NCBI RefSeq assembly: GCF_003122215.1
Contig: NZ_QEYD01000006.1
Location: 1 to 64,000 of the forward strand
Reading direction: 5' to 3'
Origin: Pararhodobacter marinus
Lineage (GTDB): Bacteria; Pseudomonadota; Alphaproteobacteria; Rhodobacterales; Rhodobacteraceae
DNA: 64,000 bases
Position numbers and translations under genes: made by a program. Position 1 is the stretch's first letter. The number at the start of each line of letters is the position of its first letter. The notes beneath the pieces were generated by a model. The model was not told where the DNA came from, did no database searches, and saw only the letters and a program-made list of their open reading frames with translations. Positions 847-49,900 of the stretch are shown one piece after another.

Positions 847-881
847 CGCCCGCGCCGGACACTCGCCCTTTCACTTTGCCC

Positions 882-937
882 CAAATACTCGCGGGGGTGA
901 ATGGCCCGGAACGGGCCAGAGGGGGCGGCAGCCCCCT
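882..937 (+). repeat. Intergenic element, module C, divergent copy
   Basis: A degenerate copy of the dispersed module C found at six other sites. It reads AAATACTCGCGGGGGTGAAT, then a GGCCCG-GAA-CGGGCC hairpin, then a GGGGGC-GGCA-GCCCCC-type palindrome. It begins 36 bp after the lrp stop. An 8-bp inverted repeat (GTTTCGCG at 938-945, CGCGAAAC at 979-986) follows before trpC. The orientation is opposite to that of most other copies relative to the flanking genes. Confidence 0.6.
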
Positions 938-18908: not shown

Positions 18909-18933
18909 ACGGGCACGCCCGCCGCCCTTTTCA

Positions 18934-19010
18934 TCTTTGTTCCGCAAATATCCTCGGGAGGATTTTCAAGGAGGGTGGAAAACCCTCCTTGAAGCGGGGG
19001 GCCCGGGGGG
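18934..19010 (+). repeat. Intergenic element, module C, copy 2
   Basis: Core CAAATATCCTCGGGAGGA preceded by CATCTTTGTTCCG, then a strong 12-bp hairpin TTCAAGGAGGGT / ACCCTCCTTGAA (18965-18993), leading into the GGGGGGCGGCAGCCCCCC palindrome and the tandem array. It begins 26 bp after hisD. Its orientation matches module C copies that follow minus-strand genes, here the ABC ATPase. Confidence 0.7.
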
Positions 19011-19231
19011 CGGCAGCCCCCCGGTCTTTCTGATAGCGGCGGGGCGGCAGCCCCCCGGTCTTTCTGATAGCGGCGGGGCGGCAGCCCCCCGGTCTTTCTG
19101 ATAGCGGCGGGGCGGCAGCCCCCCGGTCTTTCTGATAGCGGCGGGGCGGCAGCCCCCCGGTCTTTCTGATAGCGGCGGGGCGGCAGCCCCCCGGTCTTTC
19201 TGATAGCGGCGGGGCGGCAGCCCCCCGGTCT
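19011..19231. repeat. 34-bp minisatellite, six full units plus a partial
   Basis: Exact tandem copies begin at 19011, 19045, 19079, 19113, 19147 and 19181, with a truncated seventh unit at 19215-19231. Each unit starts CGGCAGCCCCCCGGTCTTTC and ends with GATAGCGGCGGGG. Units are identical, so the array is recent or homogenised. It lies between hisD (+) and the ABC ATPase gene (-), 30 bp from the latter's stop. There are no unique spacers, so it is not a CRISPR. Confidence 0.97.
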
Positions 19232-19260
19232 CCCAGTGAAAACTTAACCGGCGCGGTGGG

Positions 19261-19998
19261 TCAAAGCCGCCCGCCTTCCAGCAGCCGCTCCAGGAACTGG
19301 CGCGTGCGCGGGTGCTCGGGCGCGTTGAACAGCTGCGCGGGCGCGGCCTCTTCAACGATCCGGCCACCATCCAGGAAACATACCCGGTCGGCCAGATCAC
19401 GCGCGAAACCCATTTCGTGGGTGACGATCACCATCGTCAGCCCGCGCGCCTTCAGGCTGCGGATGGCCTCCATCACCTCGCCCACCAGCTCGGGATCCAG
19501 CGCCGCCGTCACCTCGTCGAGCAGCAGCACCTCGGGTTGCCCGGCCAGCGCGCGGGCCAGTGCCACGCGCTGTTGCTGGCCACCCGAAAGCTGCTCGGGA
19601 TAGGCGCGCGCGAAGCGTTCCATGCCGAACAGCGCCAGCGTTTCCAGCGCCTGCTCCTCGGCCTGCGCGCGGGACTGGCGCAGCACCTTGCGCGGTGCCA
19701 GCGTGATGTTGTCGATCACCCGCATATGCGGGAACAGGTTGTAGCTCTGGAACACGATGCCCACGCGCTGCTGCAGCCCGGTGCGGCCCCAGCCCGGATC
19801 GGTGACGGTGCGGCCGTCGATGCGGATCTCGCCCCAGTCGGGCTCGATCAGCCGGTTGATGCAGCGCAGAAGCGTGGACTTGCCCGAGCCCGAGGCGCCG
19901 ATCAGGCAGACGACCTCGTGTCGCGCCACGTCCAGATCGACCCGGTCGAGCACCAGGCTGGAGCCGAAATACTTGGTCAGCGCGCGGATCTCGATCAT
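19261..19998 (-). CDS. Amino acid ABC transporter ATP-binding protein
   Basis: 245 residues, polar amino-acid (HisP/GlnQ) class. Walker A is GASGSGKST, the signature LSGGQQQRVALARAL, Walker B VLLLDEVTAALDPE and the H-loop IVTHEMGFA. Its start overlaps the permease stop by 4 nt (19995-19998), so it is coupled to the permease. It is the last gene of the substrate-binding protein / permease / ATPase operon. The minisatellite lies immediately 3'. Confidence 0.95.
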   Translation of the reverse strand: MIEIRALTKYFGSSLVLDRVDLDVARHEVVCLIGASGSGKSTLLRCINRLIEPDWGEIRIDGRTVTDPGWGRTGLQQRVGIVFQSYNLFPHMRVIDNITLAPRKVLRQSRAQAEEQALETLALFGMERFARAYPEQLSGGQQQRVALARALAGQPEVLLLDEVTAALDPELVGEVMEAIRSLKARGLTMVIVTHEMGFARDLADRVCFLDGGRIVEEAAPAQLFNAPEHPRTRQFLERLLEGGRL

Positions 19999-28510: not shown

Positions 28511-28580
28511 GGCAGGGGGGCTGTCTGCCCCCCTCGGCGCTGACGCGCCTCACCCCCCGAGGATATTTGTGGAACAAAGA
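28511..28580 (-). repeat. Intergenic element, module C, copy 3
   Basis: Immediately after fabD: GGGGGGCTGTCTGCCCCCC palindrome, a variable middle, then CACCCCCCGAGGATATTTGT followed by GGAACAAAGA. The order [stop]-palindrome-GAGGATATTT matches the copies after cueR, plsY and the acyl-CoA synthetase. Confidence 0.75.
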
Positions 28581-28692
28581 GGGGCGCGGCGTCCGCAAGG
28601 GACGTGCCCCTTTTTCTCCCTGCGGCTTCACGACTGCTTCAGGGCGCGCGAAAAGGCTTGACGATACAGGGCGCGCGGCCTCGGATACCGGG

Positions 28693-36180: not shown

Positions 36181-36240
36181 GGCCAAGGGGGGCTGTCTGC
36201 CCCCCTTGGATCCCCCCGAGGATATTTATGGAACAAAGAT
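36181..36240 (-). repeat. Intergenic element, module C, copy 4 (after cueR)
   Basis: GGGGGGCTGTCTGCCCCCC palindrome, then CCCCCCGAGGATATTTATGG and AACAAAGATG. It starts 28 bp after the cueR stop. It pairs head-to-head with copy 5 (36267-36333). Confidence 0.8.
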
Positions 36241-36266
36241 GCGCTCAGGGTCGGGTTGAGCCTGCG

Positions 36267-36333
36267 TCTTTGTTCGTCAAATATCCTCGGGGGTGAATTG
36301 GCCGCAGGCCAAGAGGGGGCAGACAGCCCCCTT
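36267..36333 (+). repeat. Intergenic element, module C, copy 5
   Basis: CTTTGTTCGTCAAATATCCT, then GGGGGTGAATTGGCC, then TTGGCC-GCA-GGCCAA and GGGGGC-AGACA-GCCCCC palindromes. Inverted relative to copy 4, with about 26 bp between them. Together they form a long imperfect inverted repeat between cueR and the ArsC-like gene. Confidence 0.8.
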
Positions 36334-37390: not shown

Positions 37391-38782
37391 ATGACCGATT
37401 TCTCGATGCTGGACCTCGCGCCGACGCTGCTGTCGGCGCTGGAGCGGACCGGCAAGACCGAGCCCACGCCGATCCAGGCGCGGGCGATTCCGCCGCTTCT
37501 GGAAGGCCGCGACCTGATGGGGCTCGCGCAGACCGGGACCGGCAAGACGCTGGCCTTCGGGCTGCCGATCCTGCACCGGCTGCAGGGGCAGGGCAAGCCC
37601 GCGCCGAAATCCGCGCGCGCGCTGATTTTGGCCCCGACGCGCGAACTGGTGCAGCAGATCGCCGCCTCGCTGACCGAGCTGGCGCAGGGGCTGCCCACCT
37701 CGATCGTCACCGTTGTCGGCGGCGCCTCGATCAACCGGCAGACCGACCGGCTGGTCCGCGGCTGCGACGTGCTGGTGGCGACGCCCGGGCGGCTGATCGA
37801 CCTGCTCGAGCGCAAGGCCGTGTCCCTGGGCCAGGTGCAGATGCTGGTGCTCGACGAGGCCGACCAGATGCTCGATCTGGGCTTCATCCACGCCTTGCGC
37901 CAGATCGCCCGCCACCTGCCGAAACAGCGCCAGACGATGCTGTTCTCGGCGACGATGCCCAAGGACATGTCGGAAATCGCCGATACCTATCTCGACCGTC
38001 CAGTCCGCGTGCAGGTCTCGCCGCCGGGCAAGACCGCCGACAAGATCGCGCAGGCGGTGCATTACGTGGCGCAGGGCGACAAGGCGGCGCTTTTGCAGGA
38101 ATACCTTGCCAAGCATCCCGGCGAGCTGGCGCTTGTGTTCGGGCGCACGAAGCACGGCTCGGAAAAGCTGTCGCGGCTGCTGGACAAATGGGGCTTCTCG
38201 GTCGGCGCGATCCACGGCAACAAGAGCCAGGGGCAGCGCGAACGCACGCTGGCGGCCTTCCGCGCGGGCGAGACCGAGGTCCTGGTGGCCACCGATGTCG
38301 CGGCGCGGGGGCTCGATATCCCGCAGGTCATGCATGTCTACAATTTCGACCTGCCCAACGTGCCCGAGAATTACGTCCACCGCATCGGCCGCACCGCGCG
38401 CGCCGGGCGCGAGGGGCGGGCGGTGGCGTTCTGCGCGCCGGCCGAGATGGCCGACCTGCGCGCGATCGAGAAACTGACCAAGCAACCGATCGAGGTGATC
38501 GGCGGCGAACCCTGGCCCGAGCGCATGGCCGAAGAGGCCCGTACCAAGGCGCGCGCCGCGACCGGCCAGGGCCGCGGTGGCCGCCCGCAGGGGCAGAAGC
38601 CGAAACAGGGGGGCGGTGCCAAGGGCAAACCCGACGCCGCGAAAGCCCCGGGCGAGGCCGCGAAACCCGCCCGTCCGCGCAAGCCGCGCCCGCATCCGGC
38701 CCTGGCCGAGGCCATGGCGGAGGAGCGCGGGCAGAAACCGCGCCGGTTCCGGAAGAAGCCCGTGCGGCGCGGCGGCGAATAA
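37391..38782 (+). CDS. DEAD-box RNA helicase (RhlE-type)
   Basis: 463 residues. Motifs in order: Q-motif TPIQARAIPPLL, Walker A GLAQTGTGKTLA, Ib TPGR, DEAD (VLDEADQML), SAT (LFSATMP), then VLVATDVAARGLDIP and HRIGRTARAG. The C-terminal tail (about 385-463) is Lys/Arg/Pro/Gly-rich and low complexity, as in RhlE proteins. Probable roles are ribosome assembly or cold adaptation. Transcribed away from cspA. Followed by a strong terminator and composite elements A-B-C. Confidence 0.95.
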   Translation: MTDFSMLDLAPTLLSALERTGKTEPTPIQARAIPPLLEGRDLMGLAQTGTGKTLAFGLPILHRLQGQGKPAPKSARALILAPTRELVQQIAASLTELAQGLPTSIVTVVGGASINRQTDRLVRGCDVLVATPGRLIDLLERKAVSLGQVQMLVLDEADQMLDLGFIHALRQIARHLPKQRQTMLFSATMPKDMSEIADTYLDRPVRVQVSPPGKTADKIAQAVHYVAQGDKAALLQEYLAKHPGELALVFGRTKHGSEKLSRLLDKWGFSVGAIHGNKSQGQRERTLAAFRAGETEVLVATDVAARGLDIPQVMHVYNFDLPNVPENYVHRIGRTARAGREGRAVAFCAPAEMADLRAIEKLTKQPIEVIGGEPWPERMAEEARTKARAATGQGRGGRPQGQKPKQGGGAKGKPDAAKAPGEAAKPARPRKPRPHPALAEAMAEERGQKPRRFRKKPVRRGGE

Positions 38783-38797
38783 CGCTTTTTCAACCCC

Positions 38798-38830
38798 GGC
38801 CCGTGCATCGCTGCGCGGGCCGCCTTTTTT
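38798..38830 (+). terminator. Terminator of the DEAD-box helicase gene
   Basis: GGCCCG pairs with CGGGCC at the stem ends, with further pairing of GCA/TGC around a TCGC loop. Followed by GCC and six T residues (38825-38830). It lies 15 bp after the stop codon. Confidence 0.85.
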
Positions 38831-38928
38831 GTGTCACTTAACCGACCTCTTTGGCGTCGGGCCAAAAAACCAGACATTTCGCAGCGCTGCGTCGGACCGT
38901 ATGCGCCGGCGGGCCGGAGCAGCAGGCG

Positions 38929-38967
38929 CGCGCGCCTCGCTCCCGCCCACCGCCCCGCTTGCGCGCG
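38929..38967 (+). repeat. Intergenic element, module A, copy 1
   Basis: A 7-bp stem (38929-38935 with 38961-38967) around a conserved C-rich loop of 23 nt (38937-38959, TCGCTCCCGCCCACCGCCCC...). The complementary strand reads GGGG-C-GG-T-GGG-C-GGG, almost a G-quadruplex motif (one run is GG). Confidence 0.7.
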
Positions 38968-39004
38968 GCTCTTGCCACAACAGGGCGCGGGATGCTGGCG
39001 GGGA

Positions 39005-39027
39005 ATGAGTATTTGCAGCAGAATGAA
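39005..39027 (+). repeat. Intergenic element, module B, copy 1
   Basis: ATGAGTATTTGCAGCAGAAT then GAA, downstream of the helicase gene and oriented with it. Head-to-head with module C copy 6, which follows plsY. Confidence 0.65.
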
Positions 39028-39050
39028 GGCCCGTCTTCCGGGCTGCGCCC

Positions 39051-39120
39051 TCATCTTTGCGCCGCAAATATCCTCGGGGGTGAATTGGCCGCAGGCCAAG
39101 AGGGGGCAGACAGCCCCCTC
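39051..39120 (+). repeat. Intergenic element, module C, copy 6
   Basis: GCAAATATCCTCGGGGGTGA, then TTGGCC-GCA-GGCCAA and GGGGGC-AGACA-GCCCCC. On the minus strand it directly follows the plsY stop (16 bp), with order palindromes then GAGGATATTTGC...CAAAGATGAG. Confidence 0.8.
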
Positions 39121-39135
39121 TGGCGGCGTTTGCCC

Positions 39136-39744
39136 TCAGCGTCCGACGCGGGGTTCGGTGCCGTTCACAAGGCGCCGGATATTCGAGGCGTGGCGGATCC
39201 AAACGAGCGCCGCCAGGGCCAGGGCCAGCACGATCATGCTGCGCGGGCCGATGAACCACAGATAGGGCGCGGCGGCGAGCGAGGCGATCAGGGCTGAAGC
39301 CGACGAGATCCGCGTGAGCGCCACGACCACGAGCCAGGTCGCGCAGCACATCAGGCCAATGGGCCAGGACAAAGCCAGCAGCGTGCCAAGGAAGGTGGCG
39401 ACGCCCTTGCCGCCCCGGAAGCCCAGCCAGACCGGGTAAAGGTGGCCCAGGAACGCGGTGAACCCGGCCAGCTGGGCCGCATCCTCGCCCGCCAGCGCGC
39501 GGGCGATCAGAACGGCGATGCCGCCCTTGCCCGCGTCCAGAAGCAGCGTCGCCAGGGCCGCGCCCTTGTGGCCGGTCCGCAGCACATTCGTTGCGCCGAT
39601 ATTGCCCGAGCCGATCTTGCGCAGATCGCCCAGGCCCAGGGCGCGGGTGATGACGATGCCGAAGGGGATCGATCCCAGCAGGTAGCCGCCGATGCCGATC
39701 AGGGCGAGGAGAAGCGGCGGGGTGGTGAGTTCGGGCAGAAACAT
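39136..39744 (-). CDS. plsY: Glycerol-3-phosphate acyltransferase PlsY
   Basis: Acylates glycerol-3-phosphate from acyl-phosphate at the inner membrane, the first step of phospholipid synthesis. 202 residues, about five membrane segments. Three signature loops: GYLLGSIPFGI / GSGNIGATNVLRT, TLLLDAGKGGIAV and FLGHLYPVWLGFRGGKGVAT. The ATG overlaps the pyrC stop by one base (TGATG), so it is coupled to pyrC. Confidence 0.97.
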   Translation of the reverse strand: MFLPELTTPPLLLALIGIGGYLLGSIPFGIVITRALGLGDLRKIGSGNIGATNVLRTGHKGAALATLLLDAGKGGIAVLIARALAGEDAAQLAGFTAFLGHLYPVWLGFRGGKGVATFLGTLLALSWPIGLMCCATWLVVVALTRISSASALIASLAAAPYLWFIGPRSMIVLALALAALVWIRHASNIRRLVNGTEPRVGR

Positions 39745-46008: not shown

Positions 46009-46158
46009 GGGGCGGGATCTCCGTGGGAAGGCATGGGGAAGGCATGCGAAAAAACTCGCCCTTACCTAAGCGGGCGGGGCACAGAGGACAAGCGCCCCTC
46101 AGAGCTCACGCCCGGCGCTCAGGTCCCGCGCTCTGGCCCGACGCTGAAGCGCGCCCCT

Positions 46159-46181
46159 TCATTCTGCCGAAAATACTCATC
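46159..46181 (-). repeat. Intergenic element, module B, copy 2
   Basis: Reads on the minus strand as GATGAGTATTTTCGGCAGAA then TGAA, 29 bp after the rpiA stop and in the same orientation as rpiA. A GC palindrome (GGGGCGCCCC type) lies between it and the stop. Confidence 0.65.
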
Positions 46182-46992: not shown

Positions 46993-47452
46993 GGCAAGGC
47001 TCCTGATCCGGTCGCAAGGGTTATAGCAAGCCGCGCCGCGCGCGGACAGGGGCCGCATAGCACCGTGCGGGCCGCGGGGCGGAACGGATTTTTCCGTTGA
47101 CGGTAATTCGCCGGATGCGGAAGGTCGCTTCGGTGCAGGTACAGGTTGTCCAGCGGTTCAGGGAGAAGGCGCGTGGCACGGATCTGGAGCGAGATCGAGG
47201 CGCTGAACCCGTCTAGCGCGGCACCAAAGCTGATCAAGGTGGGGCAGGACTCTATGCGACGGAATGGCCCGCGGCCCGATGCCCAAGCCCCTTCATGTGC
47301 GATCCGCACTAAAACTATTTCGCTACCTGATCCTCGGCGGTTGCGCGGAATGCTGCGTCCATGAAGGGGGTGTGCCGCAAAAGGGAGCAGGATTTGCGAT
47401 GTGCAGATTTGGCCGCCGCCGCGGTCACCGGCCTCATCCGGCGCGACCACGA
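46993..47452. other. 460-bp divergent spacer rpiA/GST
   Basis: Contains a possible rpiA -10 (TATAAC, minus strand, complement of 47020-47025). A 72-codon plus-strand frame (47146-47364) starts MSSGSGRRRVARIWSEIEAL but has no RBS, no recognisable family and antisense frames of equal quality, so I do not call it. Otherwise nothing is assigned. Confidence 0.45.
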
Positions 47453-48136
47453 ATGATCTATACCCTGCATTACGCGCCCGACAACGCCTCGCTCATCATC
47501 CGGCTGGCGCTGGAAGAACTGGGACAGCCCTATCGCACCGCCCTGGTCGACCGCCGGGCTCGCGCGCAGGACAGCGCCGCTTACCGCGCGCTCAACCCGG
47601 CGGGGCTGATTCCGGTGCTTGAGACTCCCGACGGGCCGGTCAGCGAGACGGCGGCGATCCTGCTATGGCTTTCCGAGCGCCACGGCGCGCTGGCCCCGGC
47701 GCCGGGCGATTCCGCGCGCGGGGCGTTCCTGAAATGGCTGTTCTTCACCTCGAACACGCTGCACGCCGATCTGCGCATCGCCTTCTATCCCGACCGTTAC
47801 GCGCCGGGGGGCGAGGCCGCGCTGCTGGCGGGGATCAAGGCGCGGCTCGCAAGCCATTTCGCGCTCCTGGAAGCGGAATGCGGGCGCCACGACTGGCTGG
47901 GCGGCGAAGGGGTCTCGGGGCTCGATCTCTATCTCGCGCCGCTGATGCGCTGGGCGCAGATCTATGGTGCCGGGCCGCGCTGGTTCGACGCCGCGCGCTA
48001 TCCGCGCCTGATGGCGATGGCCGGGGCGCTGGAAAACCGCGCCAGCGTTGCGGCCGCGATCCGGGCCGAGGGGCTGGGCCGGGCCCCGTTCACGGCGCCG
48101 CAGCCTTGCGATCCGCCCGAGGGCAGCGCGCTGTGA
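47453..48136 (+). CDS. Glutathione S-transferase
   Basis: 227 residues. The thioredoxin-like N-terminal domain (about 1-80) starts MIYTLHYAPDNASLIIRLAL, with LNPAGLIPVLETPDGPVSET (cis-Pro and the glutathione-binding Glu-Ser/Thr). The all-helical C-terminal domain (about 90-220) has the GEGVSGLDLYLAPLMRWAQ segment. The catalytic residue is not obvious; Ser14 is a candidate for beta-like GSTs. Followed by composite elements A-B-C. Confidence 0.9.
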   Translation: MIYTLHYAPDNASLIIRLALEELGQPYRTALVDRRARAQDSAAYRALNPAGLIPVLETPDGPVSETAAILLWLSERHGALAPAPGDSARGAFLKWLFFTSNTLHADLRIAFYPDRYAPGGEAALLAGIKARLASHFALLEAECGRHDWLGGEGVSGLDLYLAPLMRWAQIYGAGPRWFDAARYPRLMAMAGALENRASVAAAIRAEGLGRAPFTAPQPCDPPEGSAL

Positions 48137-48143
48137 CAGGGCA

Positions 48144-48191
48144 GGGGCGCGCGCGTCGCTCCCACCCACCCGCCCCGCTCGCGCGCGCCCC
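48144..48191 (+). repeat. Intergenic element, module A, copy 2 (G-quadruplex loop)
   Basis: A perfect 12-bp stem GGGGCGCGCGCG/CGCGCGCGCCCC (48144-48155 with 48180-48191) around a 24-nt loop TCGCTCCCACCCACCCGCCC... The complementary loop strand reads GGGG-C-GGG-T-GGG-T-GGG, a G-quadruplex motif with one-base loops. It starts 7 bp after the GST stop. Confidence 0.8.
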
Positions 48192-48218
48192 CGGCGAAGG
48201 GGGCGGCCCCGGCAAGGC

Positions 48219-48241
48219 ATGAGTATTTTCGGCAGAATGAA
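48219..48241 (+). repeat. Intergenic element, module B, copy 3
   Basis: ATGAGTATTTTCGGCAGAAT then GAA, after GST and oriented with it. Nearly identical to copies 1 and 2. Confidence 0.7.
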
Positions 48242-48252
48242 AACCGGCCGGC

Positions 48253-48325
48253 CCTCATCTTCGATCCTCAAATATCCTCGGGGGTGAATTGGCCGCAAGG
48301 CCAAGAGGGGGCAGACAGCCCCCTC
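48253..48325 (+). repeat. Intergenic element, module C, copy 7
   Basis: CAAATATCCTCGGGGGTGAA, TTGGCC-GCA(A)-GGCCAA and GGGGGC-AGACA-GCCCCC. On the minus strand it follows the acyl-CoA synthetase stop by 21 bp. Head-to-head with module B copy 3. Confidence 0.8.
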
Positions 48326-48346: not shown

Positions 48347-49900
48347 TCAGCCCTTCTGGGCGACGCGGTCGCGCAGCACGCGGCGCAGGATCTTGCCCGA
48401 GGCGGATTTGGGGATGGCCTCGATCACCGCGAGGTGGCGGATCTGCTTGTAATGCGCGATCTCGCCGTCGAGATGGGCCTGGATCTCGGCCAGGGTCGGG
48501 GGCGTCTGAGCGGTGATGAAGGCCATCGGCACTTCGCCCGCTTCGGCGTCCGGCACGCCGATCACTGCCGCGTCGGTGATCGCCGGATGCGTCACCAGCA
48601 GCGCTTCGAGTTCGGCGGGCGCGACCTGAAAGCCCTTGACCTTGATCAGCTCTTTCAGCCGGTCGGTGATATACAGGTATCCGTCCGCATCGACATGCGC
48701 GATGTCGCCGGTCCTGAGCCAACCGCCCTCGACGATGGTTTCGGCGGTGGCCTCGGGGCGGTTGAGATAGCCCTTCATCACCTGTGGTCCCTTCACCCAC
48801 AATTCGCCGTCCGTCCCCTTGGGACAGTCCTGCAGCGTTTCGGGATCGACGATGCGGCATTGCGTGTTGGGGATCGTCACGCCCGAGGCGCCAGCGCGAC
48901 CCTTCCCTTTGGGCGAGACATGGCTGACCGGGCTGAGTTCGGTCATGCCGTAGCCCTGGGTCGCCATCGTGCCGATCCGGGCGCCCATCGCCTCGGCGAT
49001 ATCCGCGCCAAGCGGCGCCGCGGCCGAGTTGATCTGCACGACATGCGACAGGTCGAAATTGTCGACCATCGGGTGTTTGGCCAGCGCCAGAGCCACCGGA
49101 GGCACGATCCACATGCGCGGGGTGCGGTGTTTCTGCGCGAGCGTCAGGAACTGTTCCAGATCGAAGCGTGGCATCGTGATCAATGTCCCGCCGCGGCCGA
49201 GGTAGAAATTCATCAGTACCTGCAGCCCGTAGATATGGAAGAAGGGCAGGAAGGCGATCGTGGTTTCGCCCGCGTCAAGCGGGGCGATGGCCATCGTCTG
49301 GTCGAAATTGGCGACGAGGTTGCGATGGGTCAGCATCACCCCCTTGGGCAACCCCGTCGTGCCCGAGGAATAGGGCAGCGCGACGACATGGGTGTCGGGA
49401 TCCACCGGCGACTGCGCCCCGAGCGGTTCGCCCATGAGCGTATCGAGCCCGTTCGCGCCGTCGGGGCCGGGGCCGATGACGATGATTTCCCGCACGCCGG
49501 TGCCCTTGATGCCGTCGCGCGCGGTGGCAAGGAAGGGGGCTGCGGTGATCAGCAGCGTGGCGCCCGCATCGACGAGCTGATGGTTGAGTTCGTGCGCGGT
49601 ATAGGTCGGGTTGACCGGCGTGACGGTGCCGCCCGCCCAGGCCACGGCGTGGAACAGGGTGCAGAATTCGGGCATGTTGGGCGCCATGATCGCCACGCAG
49701 CCGCCGGGCGCATACCCTTTCGCGATCAGCCCGCCCGCCAGTCGTTTCACCGCGTCCATGACCTCGCGCCCGCTCATCTGCCGCCCACTGGGGCCGTCGA
49801 TCAGCACGGTATGGTCGCGCGCGATCCCTTCGAAGACGCATTCGGTCACGCTGAGATCGCGCAGCGGCACATCGGGATGCGGGCTGTGGATGATGATCAT
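48347..49900 (-). CDS. AMP-dependent acyl-CoA synthetase (4-coumarate-CoA ligase-like)
   Basis: 517 residues, ANL superfamily. The P-loop is SSGTTGLPKGVMLTHRN. Further motifs: YGMTELSPVSHVSP, WLRTGDIAHVDADGYLYITD and IKVKGFQVAPAELEA. The catalytic lysine near the C-terminus is in IPKSASGKILRRVL. It closely resembles 4-coumarate-CoA ligase-type enzymes of proteobacteria. Substrate not determined by sequence; no pathway genes adjoin it. It ends near module C copy 7. Confidence 0.92.
   Translation of the reverse strand: MIIIHSPHPDVPLRDLSVTECVFEGIARDHTVLIDGPSGRQMSGREVMDAVKRLAGGLIAKGYAPGGCVAIMAPNMPEFCTLFHAVAWAGGTVTPVNPTYTAHELNHQLVDAGATLLITAAPFLATARDGIKGTGVREIIVIGPGPDGANGLDTLMGEPLGAQSPVDPDTHVVALPYSSGTTGLPKGVMLTHRNLVANFDQTMAIAPLDAGETTIAFLPFFHIYGLQVLMNFYLGRGGTLITMPRFDLEQFLTLAQKHRTPRMWIVPPVALALAKHPMVDNFDLSHVVQINSAAAPLGADIAEAMGARIGTMATQGYGMTELSPVSHVSPKGKGRAGASGVTIPNTQCRIVDPETLQDCPKGTDGELWVKGPQVMKGYLNRPEATAETIVEGGWLRTGDIAHVDADGYLYITDRLKELIKVKGFQVAPAELEALLVTHPAITDAAVIGVPDAEAGEVPMAFITAQTPPTLAEIQAHLDGEIAHYKQIRHLAVIEAIPKSASGKILRRVLRDRVAQKG

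Follow-up and report, generated by a model that had tools for sequence, protein, structure and literature searches.

Modules B and C at two convergent gene junctions of Pararhodobacter marinus are versions of one core with a TATTT tag, and in the full unit three arms on a single strand precede this core. There is strong sequence evidence that this unit behaves as an intrastrand triplex motif. The third arm follows the changes of the purine arm in parallel register. Since this is seen at separate loci and across several genera, we regard it as evolutionary evidence that the base triples matter. The probable role of the repeat is in stopping transcription or sealing the RNA end. By the window we mean the whole stretch of 64,000 nucleotides that was analysed.

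Composite loci and the core family

A sequence-only reading of the window had described the order A-B-C, with module C on the minus strand, at two junctions, and direct reading finds this order at both 38925-39119 and 48144-48323. By Pfam, the first locus is flanked by a DEAD-box helicase gene (37391-38782, plus strand) and plsY (G3P_acyltransf, 39136-39744, minus strand), the second by a GST gene (47264-48136, plus strand) and an AMP-binding enzyme gene (48347-49900, minus strand). The features are as follows.

38925-38970, plus strand: module A, a GC hairpin whose loop is C-rich, ahead of the B core (direct reading; 7 genome matches)
39006-39027, plus strand: module B, a T2 core (TGAGTATTT...AGAATGAA) without a triad in front (reading and T2 pattern)
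39052-39075, minus strand: module C, a T1 core (GAGGATATTT...AAAGATG) that faces B, with the TATTT anchors 60 nt apart
39076-39119, minus strand: triad of module C at locus 1 (direct reading and triad scan); purine arm 39114-39118, C1 39102-39106, second hairpin 39086-39099, third arm C2 39076-39080
48144-48193, plus strand: module A of locus 2 (direct reading)
48220-48241, plus strand: module B of locus 2, a T2 core (reading and T2 pattern)
48256-48279, minus strand: module C of locus 2, a T1 core, with anchors 50 nt apart
48280-48323, minus strand: triad of module C at locus 2; purine arm 48319-48323, C1 48307-48311, third arm C2 48280-48284

The proposed relation between B and the A/T part of C is correct, both being versions of one core. 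The T1 (C-type) core reads GRGGATAYTTnnGGMRYAAAGATG and the T2 (B-type) core TGAGTATTTnnGGCARARTGAA, and their spacing differs by 2 nt within one genome. Genome-wide (4.49 Mb in 30 contigs), the T1 pattern has 107 matches with up to 2 mismatches and the T2 pattern has 56, compared to 0 for either pattern written backwards; the architecture recurs, and these are not random repeats. A set of 1.62 Mb, consisting of the window and stretches of four contigs, contains 83 cores, and the reversed sequence contains 0. The family has a sharp edge: weight matrices find no T1 or T2 copy between 14 and 18 bits, and at 12-14 bits there are 2 T1 matches (genic) and 2 T2 matches (one divergent, one genic). 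The top over-represented intergenic words in the first 864 kb derive from this element.

Module A lies ahead of both of these B cores, as had been noted, but is not a general component, since other B cores are preceded by a triad, by another hairpin or by neither. It is rarer than the cores; of its 7 matches genome-wide, 5 precede a same-strand T2 core by 73-84 nt. At each of the two loci the B module lacks a triad and the C module has one. An ordinary hairpin with a T-run stands directly 3' of the helicase stop codon (about 38797-38830), and A-B therefore lies more than 90 nt farther on. Module A may represent a small RNA or a Rho site. Rfam returned only tRNA across the whole window at gathering thresholds and no match at positions 38900-39140 with E values up to 1.

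Further copies in the window are found with and without triads.

870-935, minus strand: T2 core with a triad, oriented against the next gene
18932-18990, minus strand: mixed-arm triad (AAGGAGGG / CCCTCCTT / TCCTCCC) and T1 core, in parallel register
28515-28582, plus strand: lone triad and T1 core in a tandem gap, co-oriented
36187-36241, plus strand: triad (GGGGGG / CCCCCC / TCCCCCC) and T1 core behind a MerR-family gene, half of a head-to-head pair between tandem genes
36265-36330, minus strand: the other T1 core of this pair with its triad, oriented against both neighbours (MerR and ArsC-like by Pfam), anchors 60 nt apart
46158-46179, minus strand: T2 core without a triad, co-oriented

A 34-bp tandem repeat at 18973-19278 (7 overlapping 102-nt copies at 34-nt spacing) adjoins the T1 element at 18932-18990. 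Tandem double triads in which a core follows the second only are seen at C22:295578 (minus strand), C22:307683 (plus strand) and about 18960-19030 of the window (minus strand). At C24:79278 and C24:102373 of the same genome (both minus strand), T2 cores without a hairpin overlap or directly follow a stop codon.

A third arm in parallel register

The B and C modules of the sequence-only reading stand; the third arm had gone unnoticed. The triad consists of a purine arm, a loop, a pyrimidine arm C1, a linker (a few nucleotides or a second hairpin) and a third, pyrimidine arm C2. It precedes every intergenic T1 core (54 of 54) and 15 of the 27 intergenic T2 cores, the other 12 T2 cores being without one. 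The same test is positive at 1 of 5000 intergenic positions drawn at random away from the cores and at 2 of 159 other intergenic TA[TC]TT sites. From the end of C2 to the last T of TATTT the distance is 9 nt in 26 cores, 10 nt in 36 and 11 nt in 7.

Arm lengths were compared in 38 of the 44 cores in 864 kb, the remaining 6 not being parsed. The purine arm and C1 are equally long in 38/38, and C1 and C2 in 33/38 (permutation mean 16.8, largest 27). In other genomes' sites C1 equals C2 in length in 15/21, 131/154, 5/5 and 6/7, among the matches listed. Arms are often 5 nt and linkers often 14-28 nt long. Pairing of the purine arm with C1 is better than with C2 by a mean of 4.5 kcal/mol in 24 short forms and 6.7 kcal/mol in 40 long forms, and in some cores C2 pairs better, by up to 5 kcal/mol. 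The C1 hairpin is therefore the ground state by mean energy, though not in every core, and this leaves C2 free as a third strand.

The third strand of a triple helix of this type runs in the same 5'-3' direction as the purine arm and thus mirrors C1, while a strand that pairs antiparallel would be a copy of C1. Arms made of C only fit pairing with C1 or C2 alike, and therefore only arms containing A discriminate. In these, an A of the purine arm is matched by a T of the third arm in parallel register, fitting U.A-U and C.G-C triples. Among the matches listed, the 43 triads with an inner A and an inner T divide into 26 parallel, 1 antiparallel and 16 ties (sign test p = 4e-7), and the lone antiparallel triad is a site outside the cores. 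A looser triplex scan gives 33 parallel, 4 antiparallel and 101 ties, again among the matches listed; control anchors in the strict scan give 3 cases only (2 parallel, 1 tie).

The parallel triads come from distinct arms. Among the matches listed, GGGGAGG occurs with CCCCTCC at 8 loci (genomes G420 and G209), GGAGGG with CCTCCC in G294 and G333, GGGGAGGG with CCCCTCCC at 2 loci (G493), and AAGGAGGG with TCCTCCC at 7 loci belonging to the own genome, records selected for T1 and one genome of the same genus. Since the arm AAGGAGGG is common to 7 of the strict set of 26 and GGGGAGG to 8, L349 and L215 are partial matches, and copies within a genome may be kin, we estimate about ten independent events. 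Some comparison loci were chosen by their third arm alone, hence their purine arm was free to differ; some of these are coding sequence or have no clean triad, and the first places per genome are listed. Simple duplication or template switching would not be expected to yield mirror copies.

Arm order (54/54 T1, 15/27 T2) and the parallel third arm (26:1:16, among the matches listed) are those of a class III intrastrand triplex, which is the strand opposite a class II motif (PMC4666352). The ITxF database search is limited to stems of 6-15 nt and loops of 1-6 nt (PMC4666352); many triads fall outside these limits and some short forms fit.

Gene ends, pairing and turnover

The 1.62 Mb set has 218 convergent, 738 tandem and 232 divergent gaps, and its cores fall into convergent gaps (30), tandem gaps in co-orientation (31), tandem gaps in reversed orientation (20) and genes (2), with none in divergent gaps. 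Genes were called with a purpose-made hexamer-based caller rather than taken from an annotation, and single gap assignments can therefore be wrong. Divergent gaps make up 28 % of the intergenic sequence and hold 0 of the 81 intergenic cores (P = 1.8e-12), in agreement with the suggested location at 3' gene ends. Convergent and co-oriented copies have their TATTT at a median of 67 nt from the upstream edge of the gap. With duplicate listings removed by eye, the caller assigns 3 elements of G192 to divergent gaps and another 3 to genes, whereas no element of G180 is assigned to a divergent gap. Among the matches listed in the T1-selected records of other genomes, several cores fall within called genes, and a divergent gap holds the two cores of one head-to-head pair.

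A strict polarity had also been expected and is not borne out, as 31 copies in tandem gaps are co-oriented and 20 reversed. Some reversed copies are explained by head-to-head pairs, which occur between tandem genes too (8 pairs). Tandem singles are co-oriented rather than reversed in 23 against 12 cases in the own genome (p = 0.09), and tandem T1 singles in other genomes' loci in 25 against 9 (among the matches listed). Pooled, the singles show a partial polarity of 48:21 (p = 0.0016, the other-genome part being among the matches listed). Terminator-like hairpins scored alike give 66:18, not significantly different from the core singles (48:21, among the matches listed; Fisher p = 0.26). Gene-calling errors as a source of the reversed copies were ruled out, there being no co-oriented reading frames at those sites.

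An ordinary terminator-like hairpin with a T-run occurs within 150 nt of 2/56 gene ends that have a co-oriented core, compared to 97/622 other ends (p = 0.01). This avoidance is seen at convergent ends alone (p = 0.04) and is not significant at tandem ends alone (1/31 vs 48/468, p = 0.35); the scan is simple and noisy, with 327 sites forward and 217 in the reversed sequence.

Head-to-head pairing, as proposed for the two loci, holds for 78 of 79 close pairs among the matches listed, but it is a rule of the element pair and not of convergent genes only. The core pairs within 400 nt comprise 21 in the own genome and 57 in other genomes' loci, with none tail-to-tail (among the matches listed). 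As 8 own-genome pairs lie in tandem gaps, the pairing is more than two gene ends meeting. Anchors are 55-63 nt apart in 10/21 own-genome pairs and 60 or 61 nt apart in 44/57 other-genome pairs, mostly from Pararhodobacter aggregans (among the matches listed).

One locus of G180 (L162) has two outward-pointing cores with one common hairpin, a tail-to-tail arrangement absent from the 79 close pairs (among the matches listed). We considered a selected RNA stem between the two cores of a pair and rejected it: the n positions of partners match in 13/78 pairs, compared to a permutation mean of 10.5 (among the matches listed).

The core pattern with at most 1 mismatch is found in 65 of 198 genomes of the family, the own genome included, with up to 131 copies; since the pattern was built largely from the own genome, this is a lower bound. 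Sampling across the class gives a lone T1-like match in 1 of 141 other genomes, and the sole same-family genome among these has 0. The same core is present in Pararhodobacter aggregans and Rhodobacter sp. NTK016B (among the matches listed). Behind C2 the tag reads GRG-(GA)-TATTT-n-purine-rich box, its 3' half depending on the genus. Among the places listed, the part after TATTT is near-constant within a genome and varies between genera, examples being nnnGCAAGATGAA (G182), nnnCCAGAATGAA after GGATATTT (G192) and nnGACAAGRTGAA (G265). These genus dialects suggest a co-evolving partner.

TTAA-N7-TTAA boxes occur near many cores and match the CtrA consensus. The other-genome records used for pairs and boxes were picked for the T1 pattern and are mostly from Pararhodobacter aggregans (matches listed). 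A box with at least 7 of 8 matches accompanies 72/137 other-genome T1 cores, 70 of these boxes starting 23-24 nt after TATTT, and in the T1-selected records the boxes form the centre of head-to-head pairs (both among the matches listed). Perfect boxes in L182-L282 lie near a core in 29 of 30 cases (among the matches listed) and are candidate CtrA sites behind genes. In the own genome the box is mostly absent, 4/20 paired and 5/34 single T1 cores having one with at least 6 matches near that place.

Element sites turn over fast. Behind plsY, a core-like site lies within 320 nt in 4 of 16 other same-genus loci, and the same element at the same place is found, among these 16, in the closest relative G539 only (92 % protein identity).

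Possible roles and relation to known systems

We tentatively hypothesize, as the reading that we prefer at somewhat short of even confidence, that the unit is a gene-end signal whose class III triad and tag fold in the nascent RNA and act in termination or 3'-end protection. The purine arm and C1 would form a hairpin, and C2 would occupy the major groove of that hairpin, running parallel to the purine arm and completing C.G-C and U.A-U base triples. With the polymerase at UAUUU, C2 would be just out of the RNA:DNA hybrid and would dock into the hairpin, which has by then formed upstream. The pull of docking on the weak UAUUU hybrid would aid release, and the triple helix would afterwards keep 3'-to-5' exonucleases off the 3' end. 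In head-to-head pairs both strands would be served in this way, and a B-type core that lacks a triad would depend on some other hairpin or on a factor.

The RNA:DNA hybrid in the polymerase is 9-10 nt long, and the 9-11 nt from C2 to the end of TATTT appear close to this length, which we count for the RNA reading. Also counted for it are the parallel arms of equal length, the fixed distance between C2 and TATTT, the place at gene ends, the co-orientation of singles and the scarcity of ordinary terminators. Pyrimidine-type triplexes are possible in RNA and purine-type ones are not (PMC4666352). Against an RNA terminator we count the reversed copies (20/51 in tandem gaps), the 12/27 B-type cores without a triad, the fast turnover of sites, the noisy terminator scan and the lack of significant terminator avoidance at tandem ends alone (p = 0.35). 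In addition, C.G-C triples need protonated C and are unfavourable at neutral pH, as said of the C-rich strand of TM_ECO, and earlier work cited in the same paper found no terminator activity for E. coli PIT elements (PMC4666352).

Alternatively the triplex may matter in DNA, where either strand in single-stranded form, one carrying the pyrimidine and the other the purine motif, would fold during replication or transcription and cause a barrier or instability, as proposed for TM_ECO. On the complementary strand the same letters would permit a purine-motif triplex and predict the same covariation, which therefore cannot separate RNA from DNA. Reversed copies, head-to-head pairs and fast turnover suit this explanation, as does the stability in vitro of purine-motif TM_ECO DNA triplexes (PMC4666352). 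We nevertheless find it rather unlikely, given the co-orientation of singles (48:21, among the matches listed), the empty divergent gaps of the own genome, the fixed distance to TATTT and the few ordinary terminators at the same ends.

A role for the core as a DNA-binding protein site, perhaps for CtrA at the pair centre, which would block or insulate transcription with help from the triad, is unlikely too. The core's near-constant 3' half within a genus and its change between genera (among the places listed), the lack of intermediate-score copies, the pair spacing of 60 or 61 nt in 44/57 and the boxes at 72/137 other-genome T1 cores (both among the matches listed) would agree with such a site. 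The box records, however, were chosen by the T1 pattern and are mostly from one species, boxes are few in the own genome (4/20 paired and 5/34 single T1), and T1 and T2 differ in spacing by 2 nt within one genome.

We consider it very improbable that the unit is a REP-like mobile or selfish repeat kept behind genes through promoter avoidance. Inverted pairs, avoidance of divergent gaps, both orientations and fast turnover are what such a repeat would show, but the arms keep co-varying across genera, there are no decayed copies at 14-18 bits and Y1_Tnp/RAYT (PF01797) has no match in the genome. RAYT mobility was rejected for want of this enzyme (PF01797, 0 matches in the genome; control matches in 5 of 14 known genomes). 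DNA uptake sequences are dense and also lie within genes, and this candidate was rejected as 2/83 cores are genic. The poorest account is an ordinary intrinsic terminator, or a switch with the purine arm pairing antiparallel to C1 or C2: a strong GC hairpin does precede a short U-rich stretch and all-C arms of equal length suit either pairing, but the A-containing arms are parallel by 26 to 1 (among the matches listed) and C1 pairs better on average, though not in every core (4.5 and 6.7 kcal/mol), and on the parallel register and the mean energies we rejected the C1/C2 switch.

If the RNA reading holds, Rhodobacterales may, as a tentative extension to which we give a little less confidence, end transcripts and seal mRNA 3' ends by an RNA triplex besides the plain hairpin and U-run, coupled to a genus-specific downstream tag, in scores to hundreds of copies per genome and with pairs serving both strands. 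Location behind genes, together with the fixed spacing to TATTT, makes this role specific enough to test, and a partner factor is suggested by the genus dialects and the CtrA-like boxes.

Like an intrinsic terminator, the unit has a GC hairpin after the stop codon and then a U-containing stretch. In contrast, its hairpin is set away from that stretch with the third arm between, the U stretch is only UAUUU followed by the conserved box, and a hairpin leading directly into a T-run is found at 2/56 ends with a co-oriented core. MALAT1/ENE elements are protective triple helices near an RNA 3' end, rich in U.A-U and eukaryotic or viral, whereas the unit is bacterial with C.G-C triples, and the RNA triplex is here inferred only. 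REP/BIME elements are short hairpin repeats behind genes that form inverted pairs; the unit differs in having no Y1_Tnp in the genome, and in its triplex covariation and genus-specific tag.

Searching the literature for the exact string of the core yielded only primers and unrelated papers. We recognised no earlier description of the element in the open-access literature and make no claim that it is unpublished. The accessible parts of an RNase E paper (PMC6238624), a PNPase paper (PMC7866481) and a Paracoccus sRNA paper (PMC5107571) do not mention it, and those of the PNPase paper report no motif upstream of its 3' ends.

Intrastrand triplex motifs are already known in bacteria. In BoxC/PIT/TM_ECO of E. 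coli, as in the Rhodobacterales unit, three arms lie on one strand, the third follows the purine arm, and copies are intergenic and sometimes form inverted pairs (PMC4666352). The TM_ECO/BoxC pattern CCCTCNCCC-N3-6-GGGNGAGGG-N3-GGGNGAGGG has 0 matches in the window and 390 loci, and the main text of PMC4666352 does not name Rhodobacter, Paracoccus, Roseobacter or alphaproteobacteria. For its own motif that paper found neither a role in gene expression nor a stable triplex in vivo. TM_ECO is commoner upstream of genes and without strand bias (PMC4666352), whereas the Rhodobacterales unit lies after genes, carries the conserved TATTT tag, and has arms that are shorter and linkers that are long and hold a second hairpin. 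Judged by its letters, the unit thus differs from TM_ECO in sequence, tag, place and covariation, and is a separate Rhodobacterales family of the intrastrand triplex motif kind, joined to a genus-specific tag at gene ends.
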